DNA of 58,572 nucleotides, taken from an uncultured Lachnospiraceae bacterium. Lineage in GTDB: Bacteria; Bacillota; Clostridia; Lachnospirales; Lachnospiraceae. Where the stretch lies: positions 1-58,572 of the forward strand of contig ONIH01000006.1 of assembly GCA_900317825.1 (NCBI GenBank), read 5' to 3'. Position numbers and translations under genes: made by a program. Of the stretch, positions 2,757 to 47,383 are shown one piece after another. The notes beneath the pieces were generated by a model. It worked only from the letters and a program-made list of their open reading frames with translations, searched no databases and was not told the origin of the DNA. Position 1 is the first letter of the stretch, and each line of letters starts with the position of its first letter.

Positions 2757-2886
2757 GAGGAGGCACAGTAGCGGCGAAAGACCCTTATGAGACGCCGGCA
2801 CTTAGCGGCTGTATTTTAGCCGCTTATGCGTCCGCTGCGTCTCATACGGAGCGAGAGCGTGTCTTGAGCGCCACATGTGTCTCCTC
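2757..2886 (+). ncRNA. Structured intergenic element, copy 1 (unknown family)
   Basis: This segment after valS folds as nested stems. P1 pairs 2757-2766 with 2877-2886 (one G.U) and 2773-2776 with 2869-2872. P2 pairs 2778-2782 with 2861-2865. P3 pairs 2783-2795 with 2837-2849 (12 of 13 bp). P4 pairs 2804-2810 with 2818-2824. The same architecture and the same junction strings (GCGAA, CCTTATG, ACGCCGGC, CTTATGCGTCCGCTGCGT, CATACGGAGCGAGAGCG, TGAGC) recur at 47256-47383, whereas stem bases differ in a pair-preserving way. No T-run follows, so it is not a simple terminator. The strand is assumed from the flanking genes. It could be a small RNA, an mRNA leader or processing element, or a mobile hairpin repeat; I do not recognise the family. 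Confidence 0.75.
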
Positions 2887-2905
2887 GACCCGTTAGGGAT
2901 ATTCC

Positions 2906-3091
2906 ATGATAGATTTTGACGAAGAACTGAAAAATTTCAAGCCGAGCATGGAGATCAGCGAAGCCGAAGACGCGATCCGTGACAAGGACCTGACCGACAT
3001 GATCGACATCCTGAAGGAGATCACCGCCAGCCAGTCCACAGTCATCAGACAGAGCGCGGCAGTGGCGGCAGCGGCGAAGAACAAGAGGTAA
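2906..3091 (+). CDS. Small protein of unknown function (61 aa)
   Basis: I do not recognise this family. The protein is short, starts MIDFDEELKNF, is acidic in its first half (many D and E) and ends in an alanine-rich, lysine-terminated stretch (SAAVAAAAKNKR). It is predicted mostly helical, with no signal peptide, membrane span or cysteine. It ends 7 nt before the zinc-ribbon/TPR gene and begins 19 nt after structured element copy 1, so it is probably the first gene of a small operon with the TPR protein and the amidase. The codon pattern and tight spacing favour a real gene. The ribosome site is weak (ttaggga upstream of the ATG). Function cannot be inferred beyond its context with cell-envelope genes. 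Confidence 0.65.
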   Translation: MIDFDEELKNFKPSMEISEAEDAIRDKDLTDMIDILKEITASQSTVIRQSAAVAAAAKNKR

Positions 3092-3098
3092 AGACCGG

Positions 3099-4517
3099 AT
3101 GGAAAAGTGTTTTTACTGCGGAAATCCGATCGGCGAGGACGAGCGAACCTGTAGGTTCTGCGGCGCAGACCACAGGGCATACAGGATGATAAAGGCATCG
3201 TCGGAGCGTGCGTATAACGAAGGCCTGATAAAGGCACAGGCGCACGACCTCTCCGGCGCTATAGAGAGCCTGAACCGTTCGGTCCGCTATAACAAAAAGA
3301 ACGTCAAAGCCCGTGACCTTTTAGGACTCGTGTACATGAAGTACGGTGAACCAGTGCTCGCGCTGCGCGAGTGGGTCATCGCGAAGAATTTTGATCCGGA
3401 GGACGAGCTTGCGGACAGGTATCTAAATACCGTGAGCAACGATCCCGGCCTCTTTGAAAAAATAGATACAGCCGCGAAGAAATTCAACACCGCCTATAAA
3501 TACGCGCGAGCCAAGGCGTTCGATTTAGCGACTCTCGAACTCAAGGCAGTCGTAAAGGACAATCCCGGCATGGTAAAGGCGAGACAGCTGCTTGCACTCG
3601 TCTACATCCAGGACAGTGAATTTTCAAAGGCGTATGCAGAACTCAAGGCCGCGCAGAAGGTTGATGAGAGCAACCCGCTGACTGCCCGTTACATGAAGGA
3701 AGTCAGGTCGCATCTCGTCACCGATAAGAAAAAAAAGAAAAAGGAGCGTGCAGAGCGCCGTTCTACTGTTGCTATAAACGACGGACACGACGTAGTTCTG
3801 ATGCCGCGCCAGACCTTTATCGAAGCCATCGATAATTCAAAGAGCGGATTTTTTAATATCCTGATCGGTATCGCGATCGGCATTCTGGCATTTGCCTTCC
3901 TCGTGTCTCCGACGATGAAGCAGAGAGAAAATGAGGAGACCAGGAGAGCCCTGATCACTGCGAATTCGACTTCGGCATCATCGAAGAGCGATGTCGCGGA
4001 GTTGCAGAAGCAGGTCGATGACCTGAATAAAAAGCTCGACAAGTACGAGGGACAGTCCGACCTGAAGGGCTCTTACGAAAATCTCCTGAAGGCGCAGCAG
4101 CAGGCTACATCAGATGGAAGCACTTCAGAGGATGCGTCAAAGACTCTCGAGAAGGCGAATAAAAAGCTGCTCGGAAAAAATGGAAAGGCACTCTACCAGA
4201 CTCTGACAGAGCAGATCGACCAGCAGACTCTGGTCACCAGGTATCAGGAAGGCGAGACTGCATTTAACCAGCGGAAGTATCCTGACGCGATAAAGGCTCT
4301 GAAGGAAGTCGTGGACTTGGACGACACCTACGATAACGGAGACGCTATGTATAAACTCGCGCAGGCCTACGAGAATAACGGTGACACTAAGAATGCCCTG
4401 AAGTATTACCGCAAGGTCGCAAAGGACTATGCCCGTTATTACCGGGGAAGAAATTCTGCGAGAAAAGTCACCCAGCTGGAGGCTCAGCAGGATGATGGGA
4501 ACGGAGACGAACAGTGA
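3099..4517 (+). CDS. Zinc-ribbon and TPR membrane protein
   Basis: Probably a membrane-anchored scaffold or assembly factor; its exact role is unknown. The N-terminus is a zinc ribbon with two CxxC pairs (C4/C7 and C18/C21). TPR-like helical repeats span roughly residues 30-205, followed by a very basic K-rich segment (about 208-220). One transmembrane helix lies near residues 247-267, then a coiled coil of about 50 residues, then a second group of TPR repeats near the C-terminus (about 390-460). This gives a cytoplasmic zinc ribbon plus TPR block and an extracellular coiled coil plus TPR block. It overlaps the downstream amidase by 4 nt (ATGA-type overlap), which suggests coupled translation and a shared job in cell-wall remodelling. 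The topology follows the positive-inside rule and is an inference. Confidence 0.8.
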   Translation: MEKCFYCGNPIGEDERTCRFCGADHRAYRMIKASSERAYNEGLIKAQAHDLSGAIESLNRSVRYNKKNVKARDLLGLVYMKYGEPVLALREWVIAKNFDPEDELADRYLNTVSNDPGLFEKIDTAAKKFNTAYKYARAKAFDLATLELKAVVKDNPGMVKARQLLALVYIQDSEFSKAYAELKAAQKVDESNPLTARYMKEVRSHLVTDKKKKKKERAERRSTVAINDGHDVVLMPRQTFIEAIDNSKSGFFNILIGIAIGILAFAFLVSPTMKQRENEETRRALITANSTSASSKSDVAELQKQVDDLNKKLDKYEGQSDLKGSYENLLKAQQQATSDGSTSEDASKTLEKANKKLLGKNGKALYQTLTEQIDQQTLVTRYQEGETAFNQRKYPDAIKALKEVVDLDDTYDNGDAMYKLAQAYENNGDTKNALKYYRKVAKDYARYYRGRNSARKVTQLEAQQDDGNGDEQ

Positions 4518-5983
4518 GGCCGCTTAAGAGTATCATCAGTCTGGCGCTTGCAGGAGTACTGCTTTTAGCGGGGACTCCGGTGCAGGCAGAGGCAGGAGCA
4601 CTGTACAGGGCAGACGAAGGATATTACGACCCGATGCTTTTAGGCGAGCATGATAAAATAGTCGTCATAGATCCGGGACATGGCGGTCCGTGGGAGACAG
4701 GCGCCTGCTCAGGCGGACTCGTTGAGAGAGACCTGAATCTGAAGATTTCTAAATACATAAAGCAGAGACTCGAGAGCTATGGCTGTAAAGTCCTTCTTAG
4801 CAGGACATATAATACCAGGGTAGGACTCGAAGACCGCGCTAGATATGCAGCAAAGGTAGGAGCAGACGCTCTTGCATCTGCACATCTGAACGGAGCCGGC
4901 GCCAGAGCCCATGGAGCGAGAGTCATCATCCCGAACAGAAGCTATGACGGACGCTGCCGAAGTGCCGCAGTCTCGATGGCAAATGCCCTTATGAAGCACC
5001 TGTCAAAGGACTTGGGACTTGGAGCGAGATACCCGATCTATTCGAGATACACGAAGAGCGGACTCAGGTATCCGAACGGCAGCAGGGCCGACTATTTTGC
5101 GGTGATAAGGGTGTCAAAGCGATACCATATACCGGCGGTCATCGTGGAGCCGTGCTATATCACGAATGCCGGAGACAGACACAAGTGCCTGACGAGTGAG
5201 GCGAAGCTTAGAAAAGTAGGATACTCTGAGGCTGATGGACTGGCAGATGGACTCGGGTACAACCTGCATCTGAAAGCACCGGAGCCGGCTGAGCTGCTAG
5301 ACGCCGAGCCGACCGGAAAGAGCTCATACATCTCAGTGACATGGGAAAGATCAAAGAATGCCCAGAAGTACATTGTTTTCAGAAGGACCAAAGGCGGTAA
5401 ATGGAAAGAGATAGGCCGCTCGAAGAAGCCTTCATTTACCGACAAGCGTGCCACGTATAACCAGACTTACTACTACACCGTAGTCAGCGAGAACTCAAAT
5501 GGCCGTGCGGTTTCTTATGATAAGAGCGGTGTAAAGGCGAAGACTCCGAGACATGACATCGAGCTCGGCGCGCGGTATACTAACGGAAAAGTGGCTCTGA
5601 CCTGGACTGACGAGGATCAGCCGGACAGCTACACGATATACCGCTCGGGCGATGATGGTGATTACAAAAAAATAGCCACCGTTGACGGTGACAAGAGAAG
5701 CTATTCAGATGCTGATGTGAATGAAGGCAGTATTTATACCTACACGATCAGATCATACAAAAAGTGCAAGACCTACACCTATAAAGACCGGAACCGGGAT
5801 GGTGTGAAGAGCTACCTGACAGGCAGATGGACCTGCCGCAAGCGCACAGTCGTAAAGCACAAGCGAAACGACGAGATCCGAAGCACCTATAAGAAAAGTA
5901 ACATAACTGTCGCCTGCCAGCCGCAGGCACAGACAGATACAGAAAATCAGTCAGAAACGCAAACAGCTGATACTACTCAGTAA
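4514..5983 (+). CDS. Secreted N-acetylmuramoyl-L-alanine amidase with Fn3-like repeats
   Basis: Cleaves the amide bond between N-acetylmuramic acid and the peptide stem of peptidoglycan. The signal peptide is residues 1 to about 26 (hydrophobic core, cut near VQAEA). An Amidase_3 (zinc amidase) domain covers about 47-245, and the expected metal and catalytic residues are present: H56 in DPGHGG, E71 in VERDLN, H124 in SAHLNG and E212 in VEPCYITN. Two fibronectin-III-like modules follow (about 255-430), then a basic and Q/T-rich tail. The start overlaps the upstream TPR gene by 4 nt. It converges on the minus-strand hydrolase gene. The overall plan resembles the N-terminal half of the larger autolysin at 7216-9951, so the two are probably paralogues. 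Confidence 0.88.
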   Translation: MRPLKSIISLALAGVLLLAGTPVQAEAGALYRADEGYYDPMLLGEHDKIVVIDPGHGGPWETGACSGGLVERDLNLKISKYIKQRLESYGCKVLLSRTYNTRVGLEDRARYAAKVGADALASAHLNGAGARAHGARVIIPNRSYDGRCRSAAVSMANALMKHLSKDLGLGARYPIYSRYTKSGLRYPNGSRADYFAVIRVSKRYHIPAVIVEPCYITNAGDRHKCLTSEAKLRKVGYSEADGLADGLGYNLHLKAPEPAELLDAEPTGKSSYISVTWERSKNAQKYIVFRRTKGGKWKEIGRSKKPSFTDKRATYNQTYYYTVVSENSNGRAVSYDKSGVKAKTPRHDIELGARYTNGKVALTWTDEDQPDSYTIYRSGDDGDYKKIATVDGDKRSYSDADVNEGSIYTYTIRSYKKCKTYTYKDRNRDGVKSYLTGRWTCRKRTVVKHKRNDEIRSTYKKSNITVACQPQAQTDTENQSETQTADTTQ

Positions 5984-6010
5984 ACGGGCAGTACCAGCTG
6001 TATTTTTTTC

Positions 6011-7192
6011 TTATTCGCCGAGGGCTTCGTTCAGGAAGCCAAGCTCATCTGCGGCGTAATCATTGTAGAGGTATTTCGCTCTGAAAAGTGAGTAGCCATT
6101 GCAGCCATCTTCTTTTAACTCTTCATAGGAGTCAGCCAGGTTTCCACTGTAGTGAGCCCAGCCGTAATCAGTAGCAATATTCTGGCCGCATCTGTAAAGC
6201 GCAAGGGCGATGTATTTTACCTTGCCGAGCTTATCAAAGGAAGGCGAGGTGAACTGTTCAAGTCTCTGGGTGAACATCGCCGTTCCGCCTTTTTTACCAT
6301 AGTCGTTCGTCCAGTAGAGCTGAGGCATCACATAGTCGACATAGCCCTTCTGTGAAACCCAGGTCGTCACATCCGCGCCTGACGCCTTGTCATTTGTCAG
6401 ATTTCCCTGCGGAGCAATGCCGAAGGTGGCGTCCGGGTTTGCCTTGTGAACGTCCTTGTAGACTCTCTTTACGAGCTTATTTACGTTCGTGGCTTTATTT
6501 TTCTGGGAGATGTTTGCAGCGGCTTTTGCAGTCAGAGTCACCTGATTGTTCCTGGCGACATTCTGGTAACCATTCTTCGCGTGATAGAAGTAGTCGTCAA
6601 AGATGACACCGTCCACATCGTACTTCATGACTTCTTTTACGGCCTTTACGATGCGGTCTCTCGAACTGGCAGCACCTGGATTCAGGAAGTAGTTCGTGTC
6701 GACTCTGTAAGGATTCATCCAGGCGATAAGCTTTATATTCTGCTTATGAGCCTCTTCGACCATGATCTGCAGCGGGTCGAACTTCAGAGTGTTGTAAGCA
6801 GACTTCGTATTTTTCCCGGCTTTTGCAAGGGCAGTCACAGAAGGTGAGATCTCTTTTAGGGCATGGAAAGTCTTACTCTTCCAGGCAGCATCGTCATTCG
6901 AGCGAACCTGCATATAGACTGTGTTCAGATCGTAGTCCTTCAGATCGGTTAAAAAATCCTGAGCATTTTTTCGGAAAGTGGCTTCATCGTCAGTGGACAG
7001 TCCGATATTTTTATCAGTGTAATCGTAGACGGAAAGCCAGACCCCGTGGACTTCATCATCAGCGGAAGAGGCTGTCTCAGCGGCTTCGACAGTTTCTGCT
7101 TTACCTGTATTTTTTGTCAGATGAAAAGCAGTAATGCCGGTGAATGCAACGGCAGTTGCCAGCACAGCGGCGACGATTTTTTTCTTTAGCAT
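6011..7192 (-). CDS. Secreted GH10-like glycoside hydrolase (DUF187/GHL10 type)
   Basis: An exported protein with a TIM-barrel hydrolase domain of the family 10-like type (DUF187), related to the YngK group thought to act on cell-envelope or other glycans; the substrate is unknown. A signal peptide or signal anchor is visible at residues 1 to about 35. The barrel begins near residue 50 (HGVWLSVYDY) and shows typical strand motifs such as NTVYMQVRSN, KLIAWMNPYRVD and DGVIFDDYFY, whose acidic residues may be catalytic. It lies 23 nt downstream of the autolysin gene on the same strand, so the two are likely co-transcribed. Its ribosome site, aaaggag 7 nt before the ATG, is strong. The length of 393 residues fits the family. 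Confidence 0.82.
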   Translation of the reverse strand: MLKKKIVAAVLATAVAFTGITAFHLTKNTGKAETVEAAETASSADDEVHGVWLSVYDYTDKNIGLSTDDEATFRKNAQDFLTDLKDYDLNTVYMQVRSNDDAAWKSKTFHALKEISPSVTALAKAGKNTKSAYNTLKFDPLQIMVEEAHKQNIKLIAWMNPYRVDTNYFLNPGAASSRDRIVKAVKEVMKYDVDGVIFDDYFYHAKNGYQNVARNNQVTLTAKAAANISQKNKATNVNKLVKRVYKDVHKANPDATFGIAPQGNLTNDKASGADVTTWVSQKGYVDYVMPQLYWTNDYGKKGGTAMFTQRLEQFTSPSFDKLGKVKYIALALYRCGQNIATDYGWAHYSGNLADSYEELKEDGCNGYSLFRAKYLYNDYAADELGFLNEALGE

Positions 7193-7215
7193 ATGAATCT
7201 CCTTTAAGGCTTATA

Positions 7216-9951
7216 TCAGCTGCGGAGCAGCGGGTTGATGTAGTTCGAGATCAGGGTGTAGCCGTAGTTATTCGTACCGGCCCAGCCGGATTTTACAGTA
7301 GGCTCACCTGCGACTTCACCGGTCGAGTGATAGTTGTCGTAGATGCCGAGCCACTCGACGTAAGGAGCCTTTCCAATGATCGAAGTGTAGGCTCTCGGGT
7401 CAGGAATGTAGGTTCCGTTTACAGTCTTGACAGAAGGCTGGGTTCCGTCATCGCTCGCATAGAGAGCCAGGTGGGTAGCCTGTGCCCTGATGCCTACACG
7501 GACTGCATCGGCGGCAGCTGCGGAAGCACTCGTGTAAGGCTTCCCGGTTCCGTCAGTCAGGTACTTGTAGTTCTGCTTTGCGTAAGATACGAAGTCCACA
7601 CCAGGGACACCGCCTGTAGCTCCGATCCCACCGAAGTTACACTGAGCGGCTTTTACATCTCCACCGAACTGCAGAAAGCCTGTCTCACAGCATATCTGTG
7701 CGAAAAGTACCTCAGGCCTGATGCCGACTTTCCTCGATTCATCGTAAACTATTTTTGTAAAAGAGCTGATATCCTTTGCGCCGTACTTCGAGTAGGTGGC
7801 TGAAGGATATTTTTTCTTCTGGGCATTATAGTAGCGTGTCATCTGGGCGGCGGTCACCGTGGATGTGCCCTTTATCCTGTAGCCGGTAGTTCCGGAAGCC
7901 TTAACACTGGCTTCTCCGTCGAGAACAGTTTTACCGTCGTTGTCGTAGCACCACGCTTTTACTTTAAAAGTATAAGCTGTGCGCTGATCAAGACCATTTA
8001 CCACATATGAATTGACCGAAGGATCATTTATTGTGGCGATCCTTTTATAAGTATTGCCGTTGTACTGGTAGACCTTGTAACCGTCTGCTCCGTTTACAGT
8101 GTTCCAGTGGATCGTCAGAGACGTGTCAGAAGCCGGGGTGACCCAGTCCATCTGATCTGTGTCATAGGCTGAGCTGTAGGCACTTCGAAAATTGACCTGA
8201 CCGGGAGCTGTCTTTGCAGCCGGAGCCTGTACGGAAGCCTGGGCTGACTGTGAACCGTCGGAGTTCGCAGTATTTTCTGTAGTACCTGTTGTGCCGGTAT
8301 TTTCTTCAGGTACTACTTCTTCAGGAGTAGTGAATGTCAGTACATTCGAGTAGCTGCTCCAGTAGGTCTTAGTAGAGTGGAGAGCCTTGCGGTAGAAACG
8401 GACTCTGTATTTATATGTAGTTCCCGGCTCGAGGTCAGTGTCCACATACGGATCTTTGGTGTCTGTATTTACCTTTTCATAAGAGTCATCGTCGACCTTC
8501 CTGTAGAGCCTGTAGATTACATCAGGGTCAGCTGATTTCGTCCAGGTAAAGGTGATGCTCTTATTATCAGGGGCCATAGTGCCAGACAGAGTCACTGTCG
8601 GATCAGCATCAGTAGTAACAGTTGCCTGCTTCTTTACGCAGGTCGTCCAGACATTGCCCTTGTCAGTCTTGAAGTATGCCTTTACCGTATAGTCATAATT
8701 TGTGTTCTTAGCTACAGTCTCATCGGTGTAGCTTGAAGCATTTTTCTTTATCGTGGTTACTTTCTTGTAACCGCCTCCATTTGTGCTGCGGTAGAGCCTG
8801 TAGCCGGTGGCACCTTTCTCACGCTGCCAGGTGACTTTGACACGATTCATACCATTATCGACGGCTGATACCATAGTGACATCACGACGAGGAGTAGTCA
8901 CAGGAAGACCGGCGGTGTTGTAGCTCTGTGAACGGCCACTGTTATTTTTTGCTATGACAGTGTAGTAATAATTAGTGCCGTATGAAGCTGAGCCATCTAT
9001 CAGACTAGTCTCGGTAGTCCTTCCGACTTCTTTATAAGTGCCGTTAGCACCGGTCTTTCTGAAGACTATGTACTGAGCTGCGTTTGCTGCAGGCTGCCAG
9101 GTGACCTGAACCTGATTCGTGCCATTTACAGTGGCTGCCGAAGTCAGGGTGACAGGGTCAGGATAGACAGAAGTGTCCTCGCTCTTAGGGAGCAGGTTAA
9201 AAGTCTTTGCGATACCATCAGCATCAGCCTGACCAATCTCATTTATAGACTCAGTATCACTCAGGTAGTTTGCCACATCATCAGGATTAGTGAGGAATGC
9301 TGCCTCTACGATAATACCAGGGATGTGGTGCAGTTTGGATGTACGAATGACTGAATAATAATCAGAAAGACTTCCATCCGGATATCGGCTTCCGTTTGCA
9401 GAGCTCTTAGTCTTGATCTGCCTGTCAAAAAGCCCCAGAGCCTTTAGATTAGCCTGTATATTCGTCGCAAGAGATTTACCGACAGTATATGCGTCAGTGT
9501 CATAGTGGTTATTCGGGTAGTAGATCTCACTGCCATTCGGAGCTGGGCTGTTATTTGCATTCAGATGTATGGAAACAAAAGCGTCGGCACCTACATTTGC
9601 AGCATATGTAGTTCTGTCGATCAGTCCAACGTATTTATCCGAGGTTCTCGTCATGTAAACTTTGACATGTGCGTATTCTTCAAGATATTTTTTTGCTGCG
9701 TTGGCGATTTTTAATGTAAGGGTCTTTTCATTATACCCACCGCCGCGTGTTCCAGGATCCGAGCCGCCATGCCCTGGATCTAAGACGATAACTGTATCTG
9801 TATCATCAGTGAGTACCGGGTCGTAAGTACTTCCAGTCGTATCGGCAGCCTGGGCCTTCACTTCATTTTTCTTAAAAAAATATCCGGAACCGCAAAGCGA
9901 TGTAACAGCCATCGCAGCGGCAAGTAAAACTGCAGTAATCTGTTTCTTCAA
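7216..9951 (-). CDS. Bifunctional autolysin: amidase, Fn3 repeats, glucosaminidase
   Basis: A secreted peptidoglycan hydrolase with two catalytic ends. The signal peptide is at residues 1 to about 36. An Amidase_3 domain follows (about 54-255) with zinc and catalytic residues H61 (DPGHGG), E75, H129 (SIHLN) and E216 (VEAAFLTN). Several fibronectin-III-like modules cover about 265-545, a T/A/Q-rich linker about 550-590, and another Fn3 module about 592-690. The C-terminal 200 residues resemble the GH73-type endo-beta-N-acetylglucosaminidase fold, with E in the CCETGFLQFGG motif as probable acid. The start is TTG (complement of 9949-9951), with GAAAGGATGG upstream as ribosome site. A good minus-strand promoter lies at 9987-10015. 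Length is 911 residues. Domain boundaries are by eye. Confidence 0.88.
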   Translation of the reverse strand: MKKQITAVLLAAAMAVTSLCGSGYFFKKNEVKAQAADTTGSTYDPVLTDDTDTVIVLDPGHGGSDPGTRGGGYNEKTLTLKIANAAKKYLEEYAHVKVYMTRTSDKYVGLIDRTTYAANVGADAFVSIHLNANNSPAPNGSEIYYPNNHYDTDAYTVGKSLATNIQANLKALGLFDRQIKTKSSANGSRYPDGSLSDYYSVIRTSKLHHIPGIIVEAAFLTNPDDVANYLSDTESINEIGQADADGIAKTFNLLPKSEDTSVYPDPVTLTSAATVNGTNQVQVTWQPAANAAQYIVFRKTGANGTYKEVGRTTETSLIDGSASYGTNYYYTVIAKNNSGRSQSYNTAGLPVTTPRRDVTMVSAVDNGMNRVKVTWQREKGATGYRLYRSTNGGGYKKVTTIKKNASSYTDETVAKNTNYDYTVKAYFKTDKGNVWTTCVKKQATVTTDADPTVTLSGTMAPDNKSITFTWTKSADPDVIYRLYRKVDDDSYEKVNTDTKDPYVDTDLEPGTTYKYRVRFYRKALHSTKTYWSSYSNVLTFTTPEEVVPEENTGTTGTTENTANSDGSQSAQASVQAPAAKTAPGQVNFRSAYSSAYDTDQMDWVTPASDTSLTIHWNTVNGADGYKVYQYNGNTYKRIATINDPSVNSYVVNGLDQRTAYTFKVKAWCYDNDGKTVLDGEASVKASGTTGYRIKGTSTVTAAQMTRYYNAQKKKYPSATYSKYGAKDISSFTKIVYDESRKVGIRPEVLFAQICCETGFLQFGGDVKAAQCNFGGIGATGGVPGVDFVSYAKQNYKYLTDGTGKPYTSASAAAADAVRVGIRAQATHLALYASDDGTQPSVKTVNGTYIPDPRAYTSIIGKAPYVEWLGIYDNYHSTGEVAGEPTVKSGWAGTNNYGYTLISNYINPLLRS

Positions 9952-9986
9952 AAAACTAAACCATCCTTTCGTGTCCCTCGCCTTCT

Positions 9987-10015
9987 ACTTTAACACGAAA
10001 AAGTGACCGATACAA
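9987..10015 (-). promoter_or_regulatory. Promoter of the autolysin operon
   Basis: Read on the minus strand: -35 TTGTAT (10010-10015), a 17-bp spacer, and -10 TAAAGT (9987-9992) preceded by TG (extended -10). It points at the autolysin gene starting at 9951, about 35 nt downstream. Confidence 0.6.
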
Positions 10016-10124
10016 TTTCTTTCATTGTTTTTTTCTAAGAAATGCCTGATCCCCCTTGAAAACACGCGGAAAACCTTCAAGATTTGTTAAACTTTTATGG
10101 CTTCTTCAATTTTTTGCGATACTG

Positions 10125-10133
10125 TGCTAAAAT
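10125..10133 (+). promoter_or_regulatory. Extended -10 promoter before the first solute-binding lipoprotein
   Basis: TGC-TAAAAT at 10125-10133 looks like an extended -10 element; no good -35 is seen at 17 bp. It is followed by a short leader and a strong AAGGAGG ribosome site before the ATG at 10180. Confidence 0.4.
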
Positions 10134-10179
10134 ATAAGTTAGCTTTAACACAAAAACTCATTGAAGGAGGAAGAAACAC

Positions 10180-11436: not shown

Positions 11437-11450
11437 GGAGGGCAGAAAGC

Positions 11451-37061: not shown

Positions 37062-37100
37062 ATCCGGGATGATCCTCCCATCATCCCGGATTTATTTTTA
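37062..37100 (+). terminator. Main terminator of the surface-protein gene
   Basis: A perfect 12-bp stem, ATCCGGGATGAT (37062-37073) with ATCATCCCGGAT (37080-37091), a 6-nt loop and a TTATTTTT tail. The rest of the 464-nt gap (37101-37434) is AT-rich and shows no gene; the only candidate promoter near its end is TTGCGC (18 bp) TAAAAT. Confidence 0.85.
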
Positions 37101-38451: not shown

Positions 38452-38474
38452 CAGGACAGTTTGAGACATACTTA

Positions 38475-38504
38475 TTACCACAATTCACGATTATGTGGTA
38501 TAAT
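38475..38504 (+). promoter_or_regulatory. TetR promoter with overlapping operator palindrome
   Basis: -35 TTACCA (38475-38480), 18-bp spacer, perfect -10 TATAAT (38499-38504). An inverted repeat TACCACA (38476-38482) and TGTGGTA (38494-38500) spans both promoter boxes, as expected for an autorepressor site. Confidence 0.55.
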
Positions 38505-38534
38505 TCCTCTAATTGACAAAACGGAGGTTTAAGT

Positions 38535-40022: not shown

Positions 40023-40032
40023 TTCTGGTATT

Positions 40033-40100
40033 CCGGGGCAGCAGGCGAGGGAGCGCTAACAGAAAAACCGGTGTTGAGTGCGTCCCACCTGCTGCCCCGG
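40033..40100 (+). repeat. Long GC-rich hairpin, not a terminator
   Basis: A perfect 13-bp outer stem, 40033-40045 with 40088-40100 (CCGGGGCAGCAGG/CCTGCTGCCCCGG), continues inward through GGGA/TCCC, GCGCT/AGTGC (one G.U) and AACA/TGTT with only single-base bulges, leaving loop GAAAAACCGG. No T-run follows. Strand is not defined. Confidence 0.65.
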
Positions 40101-40271
40101 CATCATTCGAAAACCTTTATTGGAAAAAATGCATAAAAAAATCACGATGGGGTCTTTAAAAATTCGTCATTTTGTATTAAACTATAAACGGAAATTGTGA
40201 AATGTGCTCAAAAAACGCCCTGCGTTTTTGTACAACTTTCACAGAAATCAGTTTAGATGTTTGGGGGCCAT

Positions 40272-41360
40272 ATGATCACAAACCAGATATTACAGAAGAC
40301 GATCGAGGGGATGAATGCGATAACAAAGGTGAATTTCGTGATCACCGATCCGGAGGGCATAGCTCTCGCGACGACGGTCAGCGAGGTCTCAGAGTTCGGA
40401 AAGCCGGCGGCGGAGTTCGCAGCATCACCGGCGGAGAGCCAGGTCATAGGCGACAGACAGTTTTTCAAGGTCTATGATGAGAAGAGCCTCGAATTCGTGC
40501 TTATCAGTATGTCAGATGACGAGGAGAAAGCCCAGCTGATGGGGAAGGTCATGGCACTCCAGCTTTCGGAGCTTACGGTGGCTTATAAGGAGCGCTTCGA
40601 CCGGGATAATTTCATTAAGAACCTCCTGCTCGATAACCTGCTCCTGGTAGACATCTATAACCGCGCGAAGAAGCTGCATATAGAGGCGAACGCCCTCCGT
40701 ATAGTCATGGTCGTAAAGCTCGAGGGTGAAAAACGCGGAGACGAGCTGGAGAAGGTACGGAACCTTTTTTCAAGTCACAGCTCGGACTTTGTGACAGCGG
40801 TAGATGAGGACAGCATCATCATCGTAAAACGCCTGAATTCAGACAGCTACGATGAAGTCGAGGAGACCGCACAGTCCATACTCGAACTGCTCGGCGACCG
40901 TGAGGGCGAGTCGATCCGCGTATCATACGGCACAGTCGTCCGTGACATAAAGGACGTGTCGAGGTCTTACAAGGAAGCTACGATGGCGCTCGATGTCGGA
41001 AAAGTATTTTTCTCAGACAAGCAGGTCATCGCGTATTCGGTGCTCGGAATCGGAAGACTTATCTATCAGCTGCCTCTGCCGCTCTGCCGGATGTTCATTG
41101 GCGAGATATTTGGGGATAAGAGCCCGGATGACTTCGACGAGGAGACACTGACGACTATCGACAAATTTTTCGAAAACAGCCTGAATGTGTCCGAGACTTC
41201 GAGACAGCTCTACATTCACAGGAACACTCTTGTATACAGATTGGATAAGATCCAGAAGAGCACCGGACTTGATCTGAGAAAATTTGATGACGCCATTACT
41301 TTCAAAATCGCCATGATGGTGGTAGAATACATGAAGTATATGGAGGAACAGGATTTTTGA
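40272..41360 (+). CDS. CdaR/PucR-type transcriptional regulator
   Basis: A helical regulator related to CdaR (sugar diacid regulator). The N-terminal domain (ITNQILQKTIEGMNAITKVNFVITDPEGIALA) is the usual putative diacid recognition domain. The C-terminal PucR-type helix-turn-helix is clear: FFENSLNVSETSRQLYIHRNTLVYRLDKIQKSTGLDLRKFDDA. The start at 40272 matches homologue N-termini; an ATG 15 nt earlier (40257) is possible. Length is 362 residues. It overlaps ftsE by 4 nt (TTGA). This cdaR-like/ftsEX linkage is seen in related Clostridia, but the ligand here is unknown. Confidence 0.85.
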   Translation: MITNQILQKTIEGMNAITKVNFVITDPEGIALATTVSEVSEFGKPAAEFAASPAESQVIGDRQFFKVYDEKSLEFVLISMSDDEEKAQLMGKVMALQLSELTVAYKERFDRDNFIKNLLLDNLLLVDIYNRAKKLHIEANALRIVMVVKLEGEKRGDELEKVRNLFSSHSSDFVTAVDEDSIIIVKRLNSDSYDEVEETAQSILELLGDREGESIRVSYGTVVRDIKDVSRSYKEATMALDVGKVFFSDKQVIAYSVLGIGRLIYQLPLPLCRMFIGEIFGDKSPDDFDEETLTTIDKFFENSLNVSETSRQLYIHRNTLVYRLDKIQKSTGLDLRKFDDAITFKIAMMVVEYMKYMEEQDF

Positions 41361-42037
41361 TAGAATTATCACATGTGAGCAAGACATATGAGGCAGGTGT
41401 GAAGGCGCACGCGCTGAAGGACGTGAGCCTGCGCATCGATAACGGCGAGTTTGTCTTCATAGTCGGTGACTCGGGCGCAGGAAAGTCGACGCTGATAAAG
41501 CTGCTGCTGAAGGAGCTGTCGCCGACCGAGGGCAGCATCGTAGTCGCCGGCAAGGACCTGAACAAAATGCGCCACCGCGACATACCTGAGTACAGGCGAA
41601 AAATAGGCTGTGTATTCCAGGATTACAGACTTTTAAAAGACAGGAATGTCTACGAGAACGTCGCTTTCGCGATGAGAGTCACAGAGGCTTCAAAGAAGCA
41701 GATAAAGCGGAGAGTCCCGCAGATGCTCTCGAGAGTAGGGCTTGCGAGCAAGTACCGTTCGCTGCCGGGACACCTGTCAGGAGGCGAGCAGCAGAGAGTG
41801 GCTATAGCCAGAGCTTTGGTGAACCACCCGAAGATACTCTTAGCAGATGAGCCGACGGGGAATCTCGACGGCCATAACAGCTGGGAGATCATGAAGCTGC
41901 TCGACGAGATAAACCAGGATGGGACTACCGTCGTAGTAGTCACGCACGATATGGAGATAGTCCGCGCGATGAACAAGCGTGTGATCACTATATATAAAGG
42001 GACGATAGTCTCGGATGAGGAGGAGATTTCATCATGA
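41357..42037 (+). CDS. ftsE: Cell division ATP-binding protein FtsE
   Basis: ATPase of the FtsEX complex, which activates peptidoglycan hydrolases at the septum or side wall. Walker A GDSGAGKST (about residues 36-44), the signature LSGGEQQRVAIARAL and Walker B LLADEPTGNLD are intact. The start is TTG at 41357, overlapping the regulator stop; no ATG fits. Length is 226 residues. It overlaps ftsX by 4 nt. Confidence 0.95.
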   Translation: MIELSHVSKTYEAGVKAHALKDVSLRIDNGEFVFIVGDSGAGKSTLIKLLLKELSPTEGSIVVAGKDLNKMRHRDIPEYRRKIGCVFQDYRLLKDRNVYENVAFAMRVTEASKKQIKRRVPQMLSRVGLASKYRSLPGHLSGGEQQRVAIARALVNHPKILLADEPTGNLDGHNSWEIMKLLDEINQDGTTVVVVTHDMEIVRAMNKRVITIYKGTIVSDEEEISS

Positions 42038-42942
42038 GGCTTTCATCTCTTTCTTATAATATACGTCAGGGTTTCAAGAATATCTGGCGGAACAAAATGT
42101 TCTCGATAGCTTCGATAGCTACGATGTCAGCCTGCATTTTTCTGTTCGGCATTTTTTATGCGATCACGATGAATTTCGGAGGAATGCTGAGGAATGCTGA
42201 GAAGGGGGTGGCTGTCACTGTTTACTTCGATAATAACGCTTCGCAGGATGAGATAGACGACATCGGGACTGCGATCAGCAAGCGCTCGGAGGTCCGGTCG
42301 TACAAATTCGTCTCGGCGGACGAGGCGTGGAGCGAGTTCCAGAAGAGTTATTTCGGAAATCATAAGGACGCGGCCGATTCTTTTGCAGATGATAACCCGC
42401 TGAAGGACATGGCAAACTACGAGATCTACCTGAAGGATGTCTCGAAGCAGGCGTCTCTCGTGAAGTATTTAGAAAAGCTTCCGGGAGTCCGGGAAGTCCA
42501 TCAGTCAGCGGCTACGGCAAGAACGCTTACGGATTTTAATTCGCTGGTCCGCCTGATCTCTATCAGCATAGTCGTGATACTTATAGCTGTGGCTATTTTT
42601 CTTATAAATAACACGGTTACAGTAGGCATCTCGGTCCGCAAAGAGGAGATAGGCATCATGAAGCTGATCGGTGCGAAGGATTCGTTCGTCAGGGCGCCTT
42701 TCATAGTCGAAGGTGTGACAATCGGACTCATTGGTTCGGTCATCCCGCTGATCATCCTGTACGTCATGTACGGACGCATCATAAAGTACGTGGCTGACCG
42801 GTTTGACGCGCTCTCCGATATGTTCGCGTTCACCCCGGTAAACAGTATTTTCCGCGTGCTGATCCCTGTCTCACTGATTCTCGGTGTAGGCATCGGATAC
42901 ATCGGCAGCCGGTTCACTCTGAAGAAACACTTGCACGTATGA
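42034..42942 (+). CDS. ftsX: Cell division protein FtsX
   Basis: Membrane partner of FtsE. One N-terminal transmembrane helix (about residues 25-45), an extracellular domain of about 120 residues, then three C-terminal membrane helices (about 178-198, 228-250 and 272-295) follow the FtsX plan. The motif RQGFKNIWRNKMFSIASI is typical of Firmicutes FtsX. Length is 302 residues. Extracellular hydrolases that it might control include the autolysins found elsewhere in this window, though that link is only a possibility. Confidence 0.95.
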   Translation: MRLSSLSYNIRQGFKNIWRNKMFSIASIATMSACIFLFGIFYAITMNFGGMLRNAEKGVAVTVYFDNNASQDEIDDIGTAISKRSEVRSYKFVSADEAWSEFQKSYFGNHKDAADSFADDNPLKDMANYEIYLKDVSKQASLVKYLEKLPGVREVHQSAATARTLTDFNSLVRLISISIVVILIAVAIFLINNTVTVGISVRKEEIGIMKLIGAKDSFVRAPFIVEGVTIGLIGSVIPLIILYVMYGRIIKYVADRFDALSDMFAFTPVNSIFRVLIPVSLILGVGIGYIGSRFTLKKHLHV

Positions 42943-42964
42943 AAATGGGGTCTGTCCCCATTTT
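42942..42964. terminator. Short perfect hairpin after ftsX
   Basis: A 9-bp perfect stem, AAAATGGGG (42942-42950) with CCCCATTTT (42956-42964), loop TCTGT, overlaps the ftsX stop and lies just before ctpA. A short T-rich stretch follows (ATTTTTG). It may work as a weak terminator in both directions. Confidence 0.5.
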
Positions 42965-42978
42965 CGCATTTTTGACTT

Positions 42979-44226
42979 ATGGAAGAAAATAAACAGGAAA
43001 TCGCAGAAAAAAAGCCATCCTCTTTCAGAAAGGGCGTGTTCGCCGGGGTGCTCGGTTGCCTCGTCGTGATAGCAGCCGTTCTTGTGACCGGATGGTTTTT
43101 CGTTGGAAAGCTCTATGACGCTGGTTTCATGGATGCGAAGGACATGGCGAAGGCGAGAGTCATCTCTGGTCTCATAGACAAATACTATTATAAAAAAGTG
43201 TCCGATACCGCGAAGACTAACGGCGTCTACAAAGGCCTGATGGAGGCGATGGACGATCCCTACACGAAGTACATGACGGCTTCCGAGTACAAGGAAGAGC
43301 TCGAGGATACTTCGGGCGAATACGTAGGCATCGGCGTTTCTGTCATGAAAGACTCAGAGACAAAGGAAGTAAAGGTCCATCAGGTGTTTGACGGTTCTTC
43401 CGCGCAGAAGGCAGGTATACAGAACGGCGATGTGCTGATCTCGGCCGACGGTGCTTTTGCCGAGAACCTGACTCTGACTGAATTTACCAAAAAAATCCGC
43501 GGAAAAGCCGGTACTGAGGTGACCATCGTCTACTCGCATAACGGCGAAAAACACACGGTGAAGCTGAAGCGCGCCGCCGTAGAGAATCCGTCTGTATATG
43601 GAAAAATGCTTGACGAATCTACGGGCATAGGTTATATAGAAATAAATGAATTCAACTCAATGACTACAGATGAGTTTGAAAAAACGCTTGCCAGTCTGAA
43701 AAAGCAGGGCATGAAAGCTGTCATCTATGACCTGCGAACAAATCCGGGCGGCCTGGTGGATTCGGTGACGAAGATCCTCGACGATATCCTTCCGAAGGGC
43801 ACTACCGTCTACATGATGGACAAATACGGCAAGAAGACGACGTATTCTTCCGATGATAAAAAGCAGGAAAAATTTCCGACCGTGGTACTCATATCCGGAG
43901 ACACTGCTTCGGCTGCGGAGATTTTTTCAGGGGCGGTACGTGATTTCAAGTACGGTACACTTATCGGGACAAAGACTTTTGGAAAGGGCATAGTGCAGCA
44001 GGAGTTCACGCTTGGTGACGGTTCCGCGCTGAAGATGACGGTCGAGACCTACTATACTCCTAGTGGCGAATGCATCCACAAGAAGGGAATAGAGCCGGAC
44101 ATAAAGCTCAAGTACAAATACACCGGCGACACGTCAAAGGTTTCCGGAATGGACAGCTATGATTTTTCGAAGGATAATCAGGTGCAGAGAGGCATCACAG
44201 TATTAAAAGGAAAGTTGGACAACTAA
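42979..44226 (+). CDS. Carboxyl-terminal processing protease (S41)
   Basis: A membrane-anchored serine protease with one transmembrane helix near residues 22-45, a PDZ domain (about 115-200; EYVGIGVSVMKDSE and AGIQNGDVLISADG) and an S41 catalytic domain. The nucleophile serine is in ISGDTASAAEIFSG and the general-base lysine in KTFGKGIVQQ. It belongs to the CtpA/CtpB group and follows ftsEX, as in many Firmicutes. No clear Shine-Dalgarno sequence precedes the ATG. Length is 415 residues. The substrate is unknown; cell-wall or sporulation-type targets are typical. Confidence 0.92.
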   Translation: MEENKQEIAEKKPSSFRKGVFAGVLGCLVVIAAVLVTGWFFVGKLYDAGFMDAKDMAKARVISGLIDKYYYKKVSDTAKTNGVYKGLMEAMDDPYTKYMTASEYKEELEDTSGEYVGIGVSVMKDSETKEVKVHQVFDGSSAQKAGIQNGDVLISADGAFAENLTLTEFTKKIRGKAGTEVTIVYSHNGEKHTVKLKRAAVENPSVYGKMLDESTGIGYIEINEFNSMTTDEFEKTLASLKKQGMKAVIYDLRTNPGGLVDSVTKILDDILPKGTTVYMMDKYGKKTTYSSDDKKQEKFPTVVLISGDTASAAEIFSGAVRDFKYGTLIGTKTFGKGIVQQEFTLGDGSALKMTVETYYTPSGECIHKKGIEPDIKLKYKYTGDTSKVSGMDSYDFSKDNQVQRGITVLKGKLDN

Positions 44227-45369
44227 ATGCTAGAATTTGATCAGATGAAAAGTGAGCTCGCGGGCTACGACGACACGCTGAAGGAAGTGCTCGGTTCACT
44301 TGATATAGAAGGAAAGAAAAATAAGATCCAGGAGATGGAGCGCGAAATGGAGGCTCCGGACTTCTGGAATGACGCTGAGAAGGCTTCACAGAAGAGCCAG
44401 GAGCTGAAGAGCATGAAGGATGATGTCGCTGTCGCAGACGGACTCATCCAGAAAAAAGAAGACATCGAGACTTTTATCGAAATGGACGCTGAGGAAGATG
44501 GAGATGATCCGGCGATGCTCGAAGAGGCTCAGAAAGAGTTCGATGAGTTTAAAAAAGAGCTCGAGGACCTAAGGCTCAAGACTCTTCTGTCAGGAAAGTA
44601 CGATCATAATAATGCCATCGTGACTCTCCACGCAGGAGCAGGTGGAACAGAGGCTATGGACTGGACTTCAATGCTCTACCGTATGTATTCGAAGTGGGCT
44701 GACAAGCACGGCTTCGGGATCGAGCTTCTCGACGAAGTAGAGGGTGATGAGGCTGGTCTGCAGTCGGTCACTTTTCAGGTGAATGGCGAGAATGCCTACG
44801 GATACCTGAAGTCTGAGAAGGGCGTACACAGGCTCGTGCGTATCTCTCCATTCAACGCGAACGGCAAGAGACAGACATCTTTCTCGAATGCAGATGTGAT
44901 GCCGGAGCTCAAAGACGCGCCGGATATCGAGATAAAGGATGAGGATATCAGGATCGATACCTACCGTTCGAGCGGTGCCGGCGGTCAGCATATCAACAAG
45001 ACTTCATCTGCCATTCGTATCACGCATTTCCCTACTGGAATTGTCGTGACCTGCCAGAATGAGCGAAGCCAGCACATGAACAAAGATAAGGCTATGGAAA
45101 TGCTCCGTGCAAAGCTCGAGCTTTTAAGAGAGCAGGAACAGGAGCAGAAGGAAGCTGACATCAGAGGCGATGTGAACTCGATCAGCTGGGGAAACCAGAT
45201 CCGTTCCTATGTGTTCCAGCCGTACACTATGGTAAAAGACCTGCGTACCGGCGAGGAGACTTCAAATGTCGACGGTGTAATGGACGGTGACCTGGATGCC
45301 TTTATGAATGCCTACCTGAAGTGGGTTTCACTCGGCAAACCGAAGCGCGGAGTGACAGACGCGGAGTAA
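44227..45369 (+). CDS. prfB: Peptide chain release factor 2, no frameshift
   Basis: Recognises UGA and UAA stop codons. The tripeptide SPF (ISPFN) and the catalytic GGQ (SGAGGQHINKT) are present. In most bacteria RF2 needs a +1 frameshift near codon 26 (CTT TGA). Here the matching place reads LGSLDIE, encoded in one frame as CTT GAT, and there is no slippery stop and no SD-like stimulator just before it. The gene is therefore read without frameshifting. Length is 380 residues. It starts directly after the ctpA stop codon. Confidence 0.95.
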   Translation: MLEFDQMKSELAGYDDTLKEVLGSLDIEGKKNKIQEMEREMEAPDFWNDAEKASQKSQELKSMKDDVAVADGLIQKKEDIETFIEMDAEEDGDDPAMLEEAQKEFDEFKKELEDLRLKTLLSGKYDHNNAIVTLHAGAGGTEAMDWTSMLYRMYSKWADKHGFGIELLDEVEGDEAGLQSVTFQVNGENAYGYLKSEKGVHRLVRISPFNANGKRQTSFSNADVMPELKDAPDIEIKDEDIRIDTYRSSGAGGQHINKTSSAIRITHFPTGIVVTCQNERSQHMNKDKAMEMLRAKLELLREQEQEQKEADIRGDVNSISWGNQIRSYVFQPYTMVKDLRTGEETSNVDGVMDGDLDAFMNAYLKWVSLGKPKRGVTDAE

Positions 45370-45399
45370 TCGTCGCTGCTTTTATACATGAAAAATTTT

Positions 45400-45463
45400 A
45401 CAGATGTCCTTGACTGATTTGCACTCATGTGTTAGAGTATTTCAGTCAAGGACATTTGTTTTT
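45400..45463 (+). terminator. Long terminator after prfB
   Basis: An 18-bp stem (45400-45417 with 45442-45459, one G.U) with a 24-nt loop and a T-run (45459-45463). A promoter is nested in the 5' arm and loop (see 45410-45438). Confidence 0.75.
45410..45438 (+). promoter_or_regulatory. Promoter nested inside the prfB terminator
   Basis: -35 TTGACT (45410-45415), 17-bp spacer, extended -10 TGT-TAGAGT (45430-45438). It would serve the ACT-domain gene and hom. Confidence 0.45.
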
Positions 45464-45526
45464 CTGCGAAAGACAGTCCGGCGGTCCGGACATACCGGGC
45501 CTAAATATTTTTCTAAGAGGGAAATA

Positions 45527-45970
45527 ATGGCAGAGGAAATATACTACGTACTGAAGGAAAAGGCAGTTCCGGAGGTTCTCCTTAGAGTCGAAAAGGCAAA
45601 ACTCCTGCTGGAGTCCGGGAAATGCCAGTCCGCTTCAGAGGCGGCCGAGCGGGCGGGGATCTCGCGGTCGAGTTTTTACAAGTACAAGGACGAGATCTTC
45701 AGGTACCATGAGAATCAGAGAGGACGCTCAGTCACGATGGTCGTAAAGCTCATAGATGAGCCGGGACGTCTCTCGAAGATCCTCACGAACCTGGCTGATT
45801 CCGGCGCGAACATCCTCTCTATCCATCAGGCGATTCCGGTGAACGGGGTCGCGGCGATCACTTTATCTATGGATCTGCCGAAGGAAATGGAGGTCTCGGA
45901 GGTCACTGACCGCATTGAAAAAATAACCGGCGTTTCATACGCGAAGATACTTGCCGAGGAGCAGGTATAA
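45527..45970 (+). CDS. ACT-domain protein (PheB-like, UPF0735 type)
   Basis: A 147-residue protein, the same length as Bacillus PheB. An N-terminal helix-turn-helix-like part (SASEAAERAGISRSSFYKYKDEIF) is followed by a C-terminal ACT domain (TMVVKLIDEPGRLSKILTNLADSGANILSIHQ), a ligand-binding fold that usually senses amino acids. The start at 45527 (MAEEIYYVL) fits the family and has an AGAGGG ribosome site; a longer reading from 45404 would pass through the terminator. It precedes hom by 39 nt, a common pairing in Firmicutes, so a role in threonine or aspartate-family control is plausible. Confidence 0.88.
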   Translation: MAEEIYYVLKEKAVPEVLLRVEKAKLLLESGKCQSASEAAERAGISRSSFYKYKDEIFRYHENQRGRSVTMVVKLIDEPGRLSKILTNLADSGANILSIHQAIPVNGVAAITLSMDLPKEMEVSEVTDRIEKITGVSYAKILAEEQV

Positions 45971-46009
45971 CTGGGCGGCGCCAGAATTTTTATAAGGAAA
46001 GGAAAAAAG

Positions 46010-47209
46010 ATGAAAGCAGCGATAATGGGGTATGGAACCATTGGAAGCGGAGTAGCGGAGACACTGAAGGTAAATCACGATGTCATAGAAAAAAGAGTCG
46101 GCGAGCCGATAGAACTGAAGAAGGTCCTTGACTTGCGTGAGTTCGAAGGTGACCCGATCCAGCCTTTGATAGTGCATGATTACAAGGACATCGTAAATGA
46201 TCCGGAGATCAGGATCGTCGTCGAGACGATGGGAGGAGTCGAGCCTGCATACACTTTTGTAAAGGCAATGCTCGAAGCCGGAAAGCACGTGACTACTTCG
46301 AATAAGGCGCTGGTCGCAGACAAGGGTGCTGAGCTGATCCGGATCGCGAAAGAGCACAATGTAAACTTCATGTTTGAGGCGTCCGTAGGCGGCGGCATCC
46401 CGATCATCAGGTGCCTGGAGTCCTGCCTGACCGGAGATGTCATCGAGGAGATCGAGGGAATCGTAAACGGAACGACGAACTACATGATGACAGAGATGGC
46501 AGAAGAGGGCGCTGACTTCGACGATGTGTTGAAGGAAGCCCAGGCAAAGGGCTTCGCTGAAAAAGACCCTACAGCCGATATCGAAGGCTACGATGCCTGC
46601 AGAAAAATTGCTATCCTGACTTCACTTGTCGCAGGGCAGCAGGTTGATTACAACGATATCCCGACCGAAGGCATCACCCATATCTCAGCAGACGACATAA
46701 AGTACGCTAAAAAAATGGGGCGTAAAGTCAAGCTTCTCGCTACTAGCAAAGAGTCTGGTGACACCTACGCCTGCCGGGTAGCGCCTTTCCTGCTCCCGCC
46801 GGAGAACCCGCTGTACAATGTCGAAGGCGTATTCAATGCAGTCTTCGTCCATGGAAATATCCTGGGCGACGGCATGTTCTACGGCTCAGGCGCTGGGAAA
46901 CTCCCGACAGCTTCAGCAGTAGTCGGCGACATAGTAAAAATAGCCAAGCACATCGACAAGAACGTCCCGATCGAGTGGCGTGAAGAGAAGCTGCAGCTTG
47001 CCGACCCGGGCCTCGACAGATACCGCTTCTTCGTCCGCACAACAGACGACCAGGGTGCCATCGATGCAGCCTTCGGCGACGTCGACTATATCGACGCCGA
47101 CATCGTCCCAGGAGAAGTCGGCTTCGTGACGAAGGAAATAGAGCAGCGAGTATTTGACGAAGATGTCTCAAAACTTTCCGAAGTAGTAAATAGTATCCGC
47201 TTAGCCTGA
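46010..47209 (+). CDS. hom: Homoserine dehydrogenase
   Basis: NAD(P)-dependent reduction of aspartate semialdehyde to homoserine in the threonine/methionine branch. The N-terminal nucleotide-binding motif GYGTIGSGVAETL, NKALVADKG, and the catalytic region with VNGTTNYMMTEM and KDPTADIEGYDA are clear. The C-terminus (about residues 345-399) is a short ACT-like remnant compared with full-length Bacillus Hom. Length is 399 residues. It is separated from lysC, which acts earlier in the same pathway, by structured element copy 2. Confidence 0.94.
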   Translation: MKAAIMGYGTIGSGVAETLKVNHDVIEKRVGEPIELKKVLDLREFEGDPIQPLIVHDYKDIVNDPEIRIVVETMGGVEPAYTFVKAMLEAGKHVTTSNKALVADKGAELIRIAKEHNVNFMFEASVGGGIPIIRCLESCLTGDVIEEIEGIVNGTTNYMMTEMAEEGADFDDVLKEAQAKGFAEKDPTADIEGYDACRKIAILTSLVAGQQVDYNDIPTEGITHISADDIKYAKKMGRKVKLLATSKESGDTYACRVAPFLLPPENPLYNVEGVFNAVFVHGNILGDGMFYGSGAGKLPTASAVVGDIVKIAKHIDKNVPIEWREEKLQLADPGLDRYRFFVRTTDDQGAIDAAFGDVDYIDADIVPGEVGFVTKEIEQRVFDEDVSKLSEVVNSIRLA

Positions 47210-47255
47210 TGGTGATGACTGCAAGTAGAGAACATATTTTGGCAAAGTAAGCGGG

Positions 47256-47383
47256 CTGTGATATAGTAGCTGCGAAGGGACCTTATGGAACGCCGGCGCT
47301 TAGGCCGCGTTTTTTGCGGCCTTATGCGTCCGCTGCGTTCCATACGGAGCGAGAGCGAGCCCTGAGCAGCTACTGTGTCACAG
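47256..47383 (+). ncRNA. Structured intergenic element, copy 2 (unknown family)
   Basis: The second copy of the element seen at 2757-2886. P1 pairs 47256-47273 with 47366-47383 (18 bp with two G.U pairs). P2 pairs 47276-47279 with 47360-47363. P3 pairs 47281-47293 with 47335-47347 (12 of 13 bp). P4 pairs 47302-47308 with 47316-47322. Junction strings are the same as in copy 1, but P2, P3 and P4 carry compensatory changes. Position between hom and lysC could mean co-regulation, but copy 1 is not in an amino-acid gene context, so a pathway-specific sensor is unlikely. Confidence 0.75.

Follow-up and report, generated by a model that had tools for sequence, protein, structure and literature searches.

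A widespread, probably mobile intergenic repeat of Lachnospiraceae with a branched, compensated fold

The window analysed here is a 58,572 nt contig (ONIH01000006.1) of an uncultured Lachnospiraceae bacterium (assembly GCA_900317825.1, hereafter genome G000), which carries two copies of an intergenic repeat of ca. 140 nt that we refer to as the element. The element is multicopy, occupies a given intergenic gap in some related genomes and not in others, is found in both orientations, leaves remnants and has a fold in which changes are compensated. The family of mobile, structured repeats between genes that it defines is real, widespread and of a kind already known from REPINs, BOX and miniature inverted-repeat transposable elements (MITEs), from which it is set apart by a branched core and an RNA signal on its own strand; the family is apparently previously undescribed. 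The explanation we favour, and hold with moderate confidence, is a non-autonomous mobile element of Lachnospiraceae in which the fold of the transcript matters, and which was co-opted at some sites, such as the leader of ileS.

The conserved part of the element is a three-way-junction hairpin, in which a long and variable P1 leads through a GA/GA internal loop into P2, and beyond it into a P3/P4 arm and a very small branch capped by a GNRA loop. This architecture was obtained with RNAalifold from 19 copies, where the P3/P4 arm is long and the branch is a two-pair mini-hairpin, and two-sided change was seen in 29 of the 42 pairs of that alignment; GNRA and GA/GA are RNA motifs. A covariance model (R1) was built from 19 copies, both window copies being in its training set. 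The window copies and their parts are:

2755..2892, + strand: copy 1, whole element (R1, 130 bits as a training copy; fold z −7.6)
2757..2775, + strand: copy 1, 5′ arm of P1, partner 2868-2886 (minimum-energy fold)
2776..2782, + strand: copy 1, GA of the GA/GA internal loop and 5′ side of P2, AAGAC (partners GTCTT at 2861-2865 and GA at 2866-2867)
2783..2849, + strand: copy 1, long P3/P4 arm with conserved UU/UAU internal loop and CU bulge (fold, RNAalifold)
2851..2858, + strand: copy 1, two-pair mini-hairpin with GAGA (GNRA) loop (fold)
2868..2886, + strand: copy 1, 3′ arm of P1 (minimum-energy fold)
47253..47390, + strand: copy 2, whole element (R1, 144 bits as a training copy; fold z −9.2)
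47251..47273, + strand: copy 2, 5′ arm of P1, partner 47366-47389 (fold)
47274..47279, + strand: copy 2, GA of the GA/GA loop and 5′ side of P2, AGGG (partners CCCT at 47360-47363 and GA at 47364-47365)
47281..47347, + strand: copy 2, long P3/P4 arm (fold, RNAalifold)
47349..47356, + strand: copy 2, mini-hairpin with GAGA loop (fold)
47366..47389, + strand: copy 2, 3′ arm of P1 (fold)

The z values are relative to dinucleotide shuffles, 0 of 200 of which were as low for either copy. Between the two copies 23 pairs of the 42-pair model are identical, 11 show a two-sided change and are paired in both, three show a one-sided change and are still paired, and five are formed in copy 2 only; in each of six slid controls, with the 3′ partners moved by 1-3 columns, only one two-sided Watson-Crick exchange was seen, against the 11 real ones. 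A previous examination of the letters alone (the sequence-only reading) had placed both segments here under one common fold, the ends of which R1 stretches slightly, and had reported at least nine two-sided compensatory changes, in agreement with our count. The exchanges that it described in P2, P3 and P4 are seen in both sequences, and its argument for selection on a fold holds, as the helices covary strongly across the family alignments. Among the matches in the window's genus (95, of which 92 are distinct) 94.9% of cells were paired, compared with 65.7% after column shuffling and 27.5-46.4% after sliding, whilst among those in named genomes (101, of which 100 are distinct) the values were 96.3%, 67.4% and 29.6-45.7%; the two sets overlap, some entries being the same places, and both alignments were fitted to R1 and hold its training copies. 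In the mini-hairpin the loop reads GAGA, GAAA, GGGA, GCAA, GCGA or GGAA in 87 of 92 genus rows and 93 of 100 named-genome rows; it is AAGA in one row per set, and the other exceptions are gapped or carry insertions. Four shortened copies (L010, L060:1019-1117, L063:2540-2636 and L065:2418-2504), in which P4 or most of P3/P4 is gone, retain P1 and the GNRA branch.

The sequence-only reading took this for a two-copy element, which it is not: R1 gave 11 matches in the window genome, ten of them end to end and one a 32-nt fragment that is probably due to chance. A sequence pattern found five copies there and matches in 5 of 41 genomes, the window genome included. Searching the window genome and other Lachnospiraceae with a covariance model had been proposed, and this gave matches across the family. 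In the window's genus 9 of 13 genomes matched (the window genome included), with 25 matches in G010 and a single weak one each in G001 and G004 (33 and 29 bits). At the level of the family 83 of 200 genomes matched (one genome per genus, 16 candidates scored per genome), and at the level of the class 10 of 391, all ten being Lachnospiraceae (8 candidates per genome, strict filters, in a sample that includes at least 16 genomes of the window's family). Copy numbers reach tens per genome. A pattern scan of named genomes gave at least 114 stretches, 80 of which were taken as loci; titles among the matches listed include [Clostridium] symbiosum, Lacrimispora, Mediterraneibacter, Acetatifactor, Blautia and Ruminococcus turbiniformis, most of which are Lachnospiraceae by name or belong to genera that we take to be Lachnospiraceae, and one listed record is titled Muribaculum sp.

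No Rfam 15 covariance model matched the element at its gathering score, in line with the earlier statement that it belongs to no recognised family or riboswitch. At E-values up to 10 a single 13.3-bit match was found beside copy 1, far below cut-off, and at E-values up to 1 a 17.4-bit GlmZ match (cut-off 60) covered part of one copy at an ileS locus, L229. Phages and plasmids gave no match with the sequence of copy 2 as sole query, viral contigs none with one strict pattern, and no description of the element was found in literature titles and abstracts, a search whose scope excluded most subscription journals, so that novelty is unproven.

The copies behave like insertions, by their presence and absence, both orientations and remnants. 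Copy 1 lies 17 nt downstream of valS (95-2737, identified by NCBIfam) and 13 nt upstream of a 61-codon open reading frame (ORF, 2906-3091), whilst copy 2 lies 43 nt downstream of hom (46010-47209) and 36 nt upstream of lysC (47427-48632), as we presume these genes to be from their sequence. With gaps of 13-43 nt and neighbours all on the same strand, both copies look intercistronic; the sequence-only reading was right about the strand and wrong in putting the copies between unrelated transcription units. In the genus, searches with the upstream genes found valS in 12 of 13 genomes and hom in all 13. Between hom and lysC the element is present in G000 and G010 only (2 of 13), with lysC directly after hom in the other 11. 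After valS it is present in G000, G010 and G003, three of the seven genomes with that gene order, and the site is empty in G012, G009, G007 and G011, which have the same next gene; the other five have a different next gene and are not informative. The flanks of eleven further copies were aligned with relatives for empty sites and remnants. Nine relatives are free of the element at the aligned site (L353, L349, L366, L348, L365, L374, L342, L347 and L361), and five hold remnants: parts of both P1 arms with the core gone (L369, L371), 3′-side sequence (L359), 3′-side sequence with the GNRA branch (L368), or the 5′ arm with a few 3′ bases (L370). Three (L352, L358, L373) were not cleanly readable, and in two (L346, L364) other insertions stand in place of the element. 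The gap at L346 (in G007; G009 has the element, L081) holds a small gene between GAGTTATGAGTT-like inverted repeats, which presumably encodes a four-helix-bundle (rRNA intervening-sequence) protein, and that at L364 (in G007; G009 has the element, L082) is filled by a different inverted repeat of ATAACTTATAACT type, similar ones also occurring after valS in G007 and G009. Insertion of the core into pre-existing host hairpins was considered and rejected, as no counterpart of a P1 arm was seen in the clean empty gaps (by eye, unfolded); the empty hom-lysC gap of G008 does hold a short GATACC/GGTATC repeat.

Of 155 copies, classified with our own gene finder, 70 are sense to both neighbours and one more is sense and overlaps a predicted ORF, 46 are antisense, 19 are convergent, 13 divergent and 6 at edges. 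Pairs within 600 nt in two match sets were listed 24 times as minus-plus, twice as plus-plus and never as plus-minus; two loci were listed twice and an overlapping fragment match confuses one pair, and the cleaned list has 23 distinct close pairs, of which 22 are head to head (minus-then-plus), one is tandem and none is tail to tail. Collapsing orthologues leaves about 13 head-to-head sites, and many copies are single. G138 has tandem arrays of near-identical copies (L328 in G138:C21 and L329 in G138:C59) at spacings of 187 nt and 164 nt. In G194 the element sits inside a unit of 263 bp that has terminal repeats (GGGTGTCAAAAGCCCTTA, matched 44 times forward and 24 times in reverse with up to 2 mismatches), and the flanks of seven distinct copies, read by eye, carry 8-bp repeats that are exact in four (in one register), match at 7 of 8 positions in two and at 6 of 8 in one; the script used for these flanks missed 2 further loci. 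The terminal repeats of carriers in G065 differ from those of G194 (by eye). For an autonomous partner in G194, one unpaired terminal repeat (L337) was inspected and lies beside ABC-transporter-like genes, and no transposase was found for the G194 unit or for the window's lineage. A 717-nt ORF between two G010 copies was dropped as a candidate mobility gene since a 729-nt relative adjoins a single copy in G009. The sequence-only reading had offered a small RNA family, an mRNA-processing element or a mobile palindromic element preserved by way of its hairpin; the last fits best, given the empty sites, remnants, both orientations and, in one genome, terminal repeats with target duplications, whilst a gene-specific mRNA element lacks support as a general explanation.

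To separate RNA-level from DNA-level selection, G-U and A-C pairs were counted in P1 after pairing its arms by a Watson-Crick-only score (which avoids bias) and trimming the ends; copies shorter than 115 nt, or with their first 60 nt common to another copy, were left out, and this trimmed count is the one relied on. Across 149 copies the G-U:A-C count was 107:22 (47:10 in 66 copies sense to both neighbours, 34:8 in 44 antisense ones), a set of 84 copies, chosen more strictly for non-redundancy and excluding those at ileS, gave 62:12, and model-fitted counts were 81:18 and 59:11. P1 carries a clear RNA-level signal, which P3/P4 lacks, and as copies antisense to genes show the G-U excess as much as sense ones, this suggests that selection acts on the element's own strand rather than on the neighbour's message. 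We consider it unlikely that the element is purely a DNA-level palindrome similar to MITEs or repetitive extragenic palindromic (REP) sequences, whose single-stranded hairpin would be the substrate of a transposase and whose pairing would follow from hairpin selection or template-switch correction: the P1 counts and the prevalence of GNRA loops argue against it, as do the conserved internal loops, which correction of one arm by the other should erase. The nested terminal repeats and 8-bp target duplications of G194 fit such a palindrome, and so does the case of L069 and L074, whose downstream flanks are 97.6% identical and whose outer P1 arms are the same, yet which differ by 13 two-sided changes inside; by this comparison the interior of the element seems to have been replaced.

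Several further results weigh against a fold that matters in the transcript of a mobile element. In P3/P4, with one fixed G-U pair excluded, there is little of either G-U or A-C (22 and 16, respectively), and these almost purely Watson-Crick helices are again what a DNA-level palindrome would have. The G-U excess in untrimmed P1 is smaller (145:78 and 186:119), and all of the G-U:A-C ratios are uncalibrated, with no known RNA or DNA palindrome as yardstick. Eleven close orthologous pairs of copies show six broken pairs, six changes to G-U and two compensated changes, with a further two from G-U to Watson-Crick; both differences between the G000 and G010 hom-lysC copies break a pair, whilst ten more distant orthologous pairs show many two-sided changes. 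Non-compensatory changes, or a MITE or insertion-sequence end with a transposase, were what the sequence-only reading had said would count against it, and the changes were found in these close pairs and a MITE-like unit in G194, though no transposase. The Y1 transposase (PF01797) is absent from carriers G000 and G010, with 11 and 25 matches to the element, and the reverse transcriptase (PF00078) from carriers G007, G008, G009 and G010, these being incomplete metagenome-assembled genomes (MAGs). PF01797 is present in 7 of the 13 genus genomes and does not track the element, and mobilisation by it in the manner of a REP-associated tyrosine transposase (RAYT) was rejected; mobilisation by reverse transcriptase was likewise rejected on its absence from the four carriers, PF00078 being found in 4 of 13 genomes with one match in G000. 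No target duplication is readable in the window's lineage. Upstream of 154 copies no promoter signal rises above the reverse strand (mean sigma-70 score 5.40 forward, 5.67 reverse), so that a promoter of the element's own was rejected, a difficulty for the transcription of the antisense copies.

At one site the element seems to have been co-opted and kept by the host. A head-to-head pair lies ahead of ileS in nine loci, by title five from Mediterraneibacter and the others from Ruminococcus, Lachnoclostridium and Eubacteriales. The loop of the proximal copy is GAGA in 9 of 9 and that of the distal copy GAAA in 8 of 9, and these uniform loop types point to a pair inherited in place; as exceptions, the proximal copy of L200 has a P3 of the distal type, and in L183 and L225 it is the distal copy that deviates. 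Over 36 species pairs, two-sided Watson-Crick differences number 381 in the proximal copies, which also have 104 differences of Watson-Crick to G-U and 23 of Watson-Crick to mispair; the distal copies have 360, 73 and 45, with 3 of G-U to mispair (all 42 pairs, gapped cells excluded, comparisons non-independent, alignment model-fitted). Here P1 changed with compensation in place, unlike in the eleven close orthologous pairs, and its trimmed G-U:A-C count is 9:0 in the proximal copies and 11:1 in the distal ones, which are antisense to ileS. The spacer holds CCGTTCTG in eight of the nine loci and CCGTTCCG in one; CCGTTCTG is complementary to the purine-rich CAGAAAGG before the ileS start codon, and as a lead from sequence, this pairing would hide the ileS ribosome-binding site. 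No T-box was listed at gathering score in the nine loci, and in L229, the one locus scanned with a lax threshold, a T-box (2997-3296; 59.6 bits, E 3.2e-12, Rfam cut-off 93) lies just upstream of the element pair.

Such sites raise the alternative of a host RNA with a cis-regulatory or processing role (an RNase III site or an attenuator, for instance) that is merely being duplicated, with translation genes as its regulon. Genes adjacent to the element fall into 196 clusters at 117 distinct sites, and ten of the clusters are aminoacyl-tRNA synthetases (valS, leuS, serS, glnS, thrS, pheS, pheT, ileS, cysS and aspS), called by eye from their N-termini; the NCBIfam best match agrees for 10 of 10 pieces of 280 residues, 2 of which pass the whole-protein cut-off. 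Among 261 second-neighbour clusters, also called by eye, one is a synthetase (an ileS fragment), a HisRS-like protein taken for hisZ being uncounted. This enrichment (Fisher p 0.001), together with the in-place compensation of the ileS pairs and their position after a T-box in L229, would suit such a regulator; however, the enrichment is post hoc, the hypothesis coming from the same data, no common theme is apparent among the other adjacent genes, 46 of the 155 copies run antisense to both flanking genes and another 13 have divergent neighbours, and most relatives lack the element at both window sites, leaving a cis-regulatory RNA quite improbable. Less credible still is a family of independently transcribed, trans-acting small RNA genes: the own-strand RNA signal appears whatever the orientation of the neighbours, as in the distal ileS copies, but there is no upstream promoter signal, no T-run follows either window copy (as the sequence-only reading had noted), and the 500-nt flanks of non-orthologous copies in the window's genus are not common to them, the G010 composites and a G000 tandem excepted.

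For a mobile element with a functional transcript, we would expect the fold to be selected in the element's own RNA, judging from the tolerance of G-U, the rarity of A-C and the indifference to neighbour direction, and the folded RNA would most likely be bound by a trans-acting factor serving spread or upkeep of the element. At sites such as hom-lysC, transcription of the operon would run across the element, whose structure has no terminator, and the host seems to have kept it in a few places, among them the leader of ileS in species of the Mediterraneibacter type. A bolder version, which we find doubtful, is a new class of bacterial mobile elements in which what transposes or is maintained relies on the folded RNA of its own strand; the head-to-head pairs would then be structured RNAs with divergent transcription, unrelated MITE ends would carry them, and domestication near genes for aminoacyl-tRNA synthetases would have happened repeatedly.

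REPINs are described as short, intergenic, palindromic sequences in many copies that form inverted doublets (PMC3116915), with a REP unit of 20-40 bp (PMC3733652). The element is likewise short, intergenic, multicopy and palindromic, with 22 of 23 distinct close pairs head to head, but its unit of ~138 nt forms a three-way junction and the Y1 transposase was not found in the incomplete MAGs of carriers G000 and G010; the comparison with REP and RAYT suggested earlier thus bears out the doublets and neither the unit size nor the transposase. BOX repeats of Streptococcus pneumoniae are reported to be small interspersed repeats with extensive secondary structure that are co-transcribed with operons, one of them lying between T-boxes upstream of trp (PMC3049150). 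The element too is a small structured repeat, and the L229 ileS pair follows a T-box much as that BOX neighbours the trp T-boxes; BOX differs, on a comparison by description only, in its host and in being made of A, B and C modules (PMC3049150). The 263-bp G194 unit resembles a MITE in its terminal repeats and 8-bp duplications, whilst the window copies show no such ends and the terminal repeats of G065 and G194 are unlike (by eye). To our knowledge a branched core with a GNRA loop is part of neither enterobacterial repetitive intergenic consensus (ERIC) nor Correia repeats, from which we separate the element by description. Both are said to cause transcript cleavage once transcribed (PMC3049150). 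From riboswitches and gene-specific leaders the element differs in having no fixed sense position and no functionally coherent gene set.

Lachnospiraceae are common in the gut, and an abundant repeat found across this family was missed by Rfam 15 although it lies inside apparent core operons (valS, hom-lysC, pheS-pheT and, we presume, gyrB-gyrA). As a mobile repeat with a fold that, on one strand, follows the evolution of an RNA, it is a natural case that makes a role of small interspersed repeats as RNA testable. As a separate observation, the window holds an S10-Clostridia ribosomal protein leader (RF03136, 64.8 bits) at 57152-57281, ahead of a gene at 57367, and in G012 (L101) an element copy at 512-649 lies upstream of a leader of the same type at 821-919.

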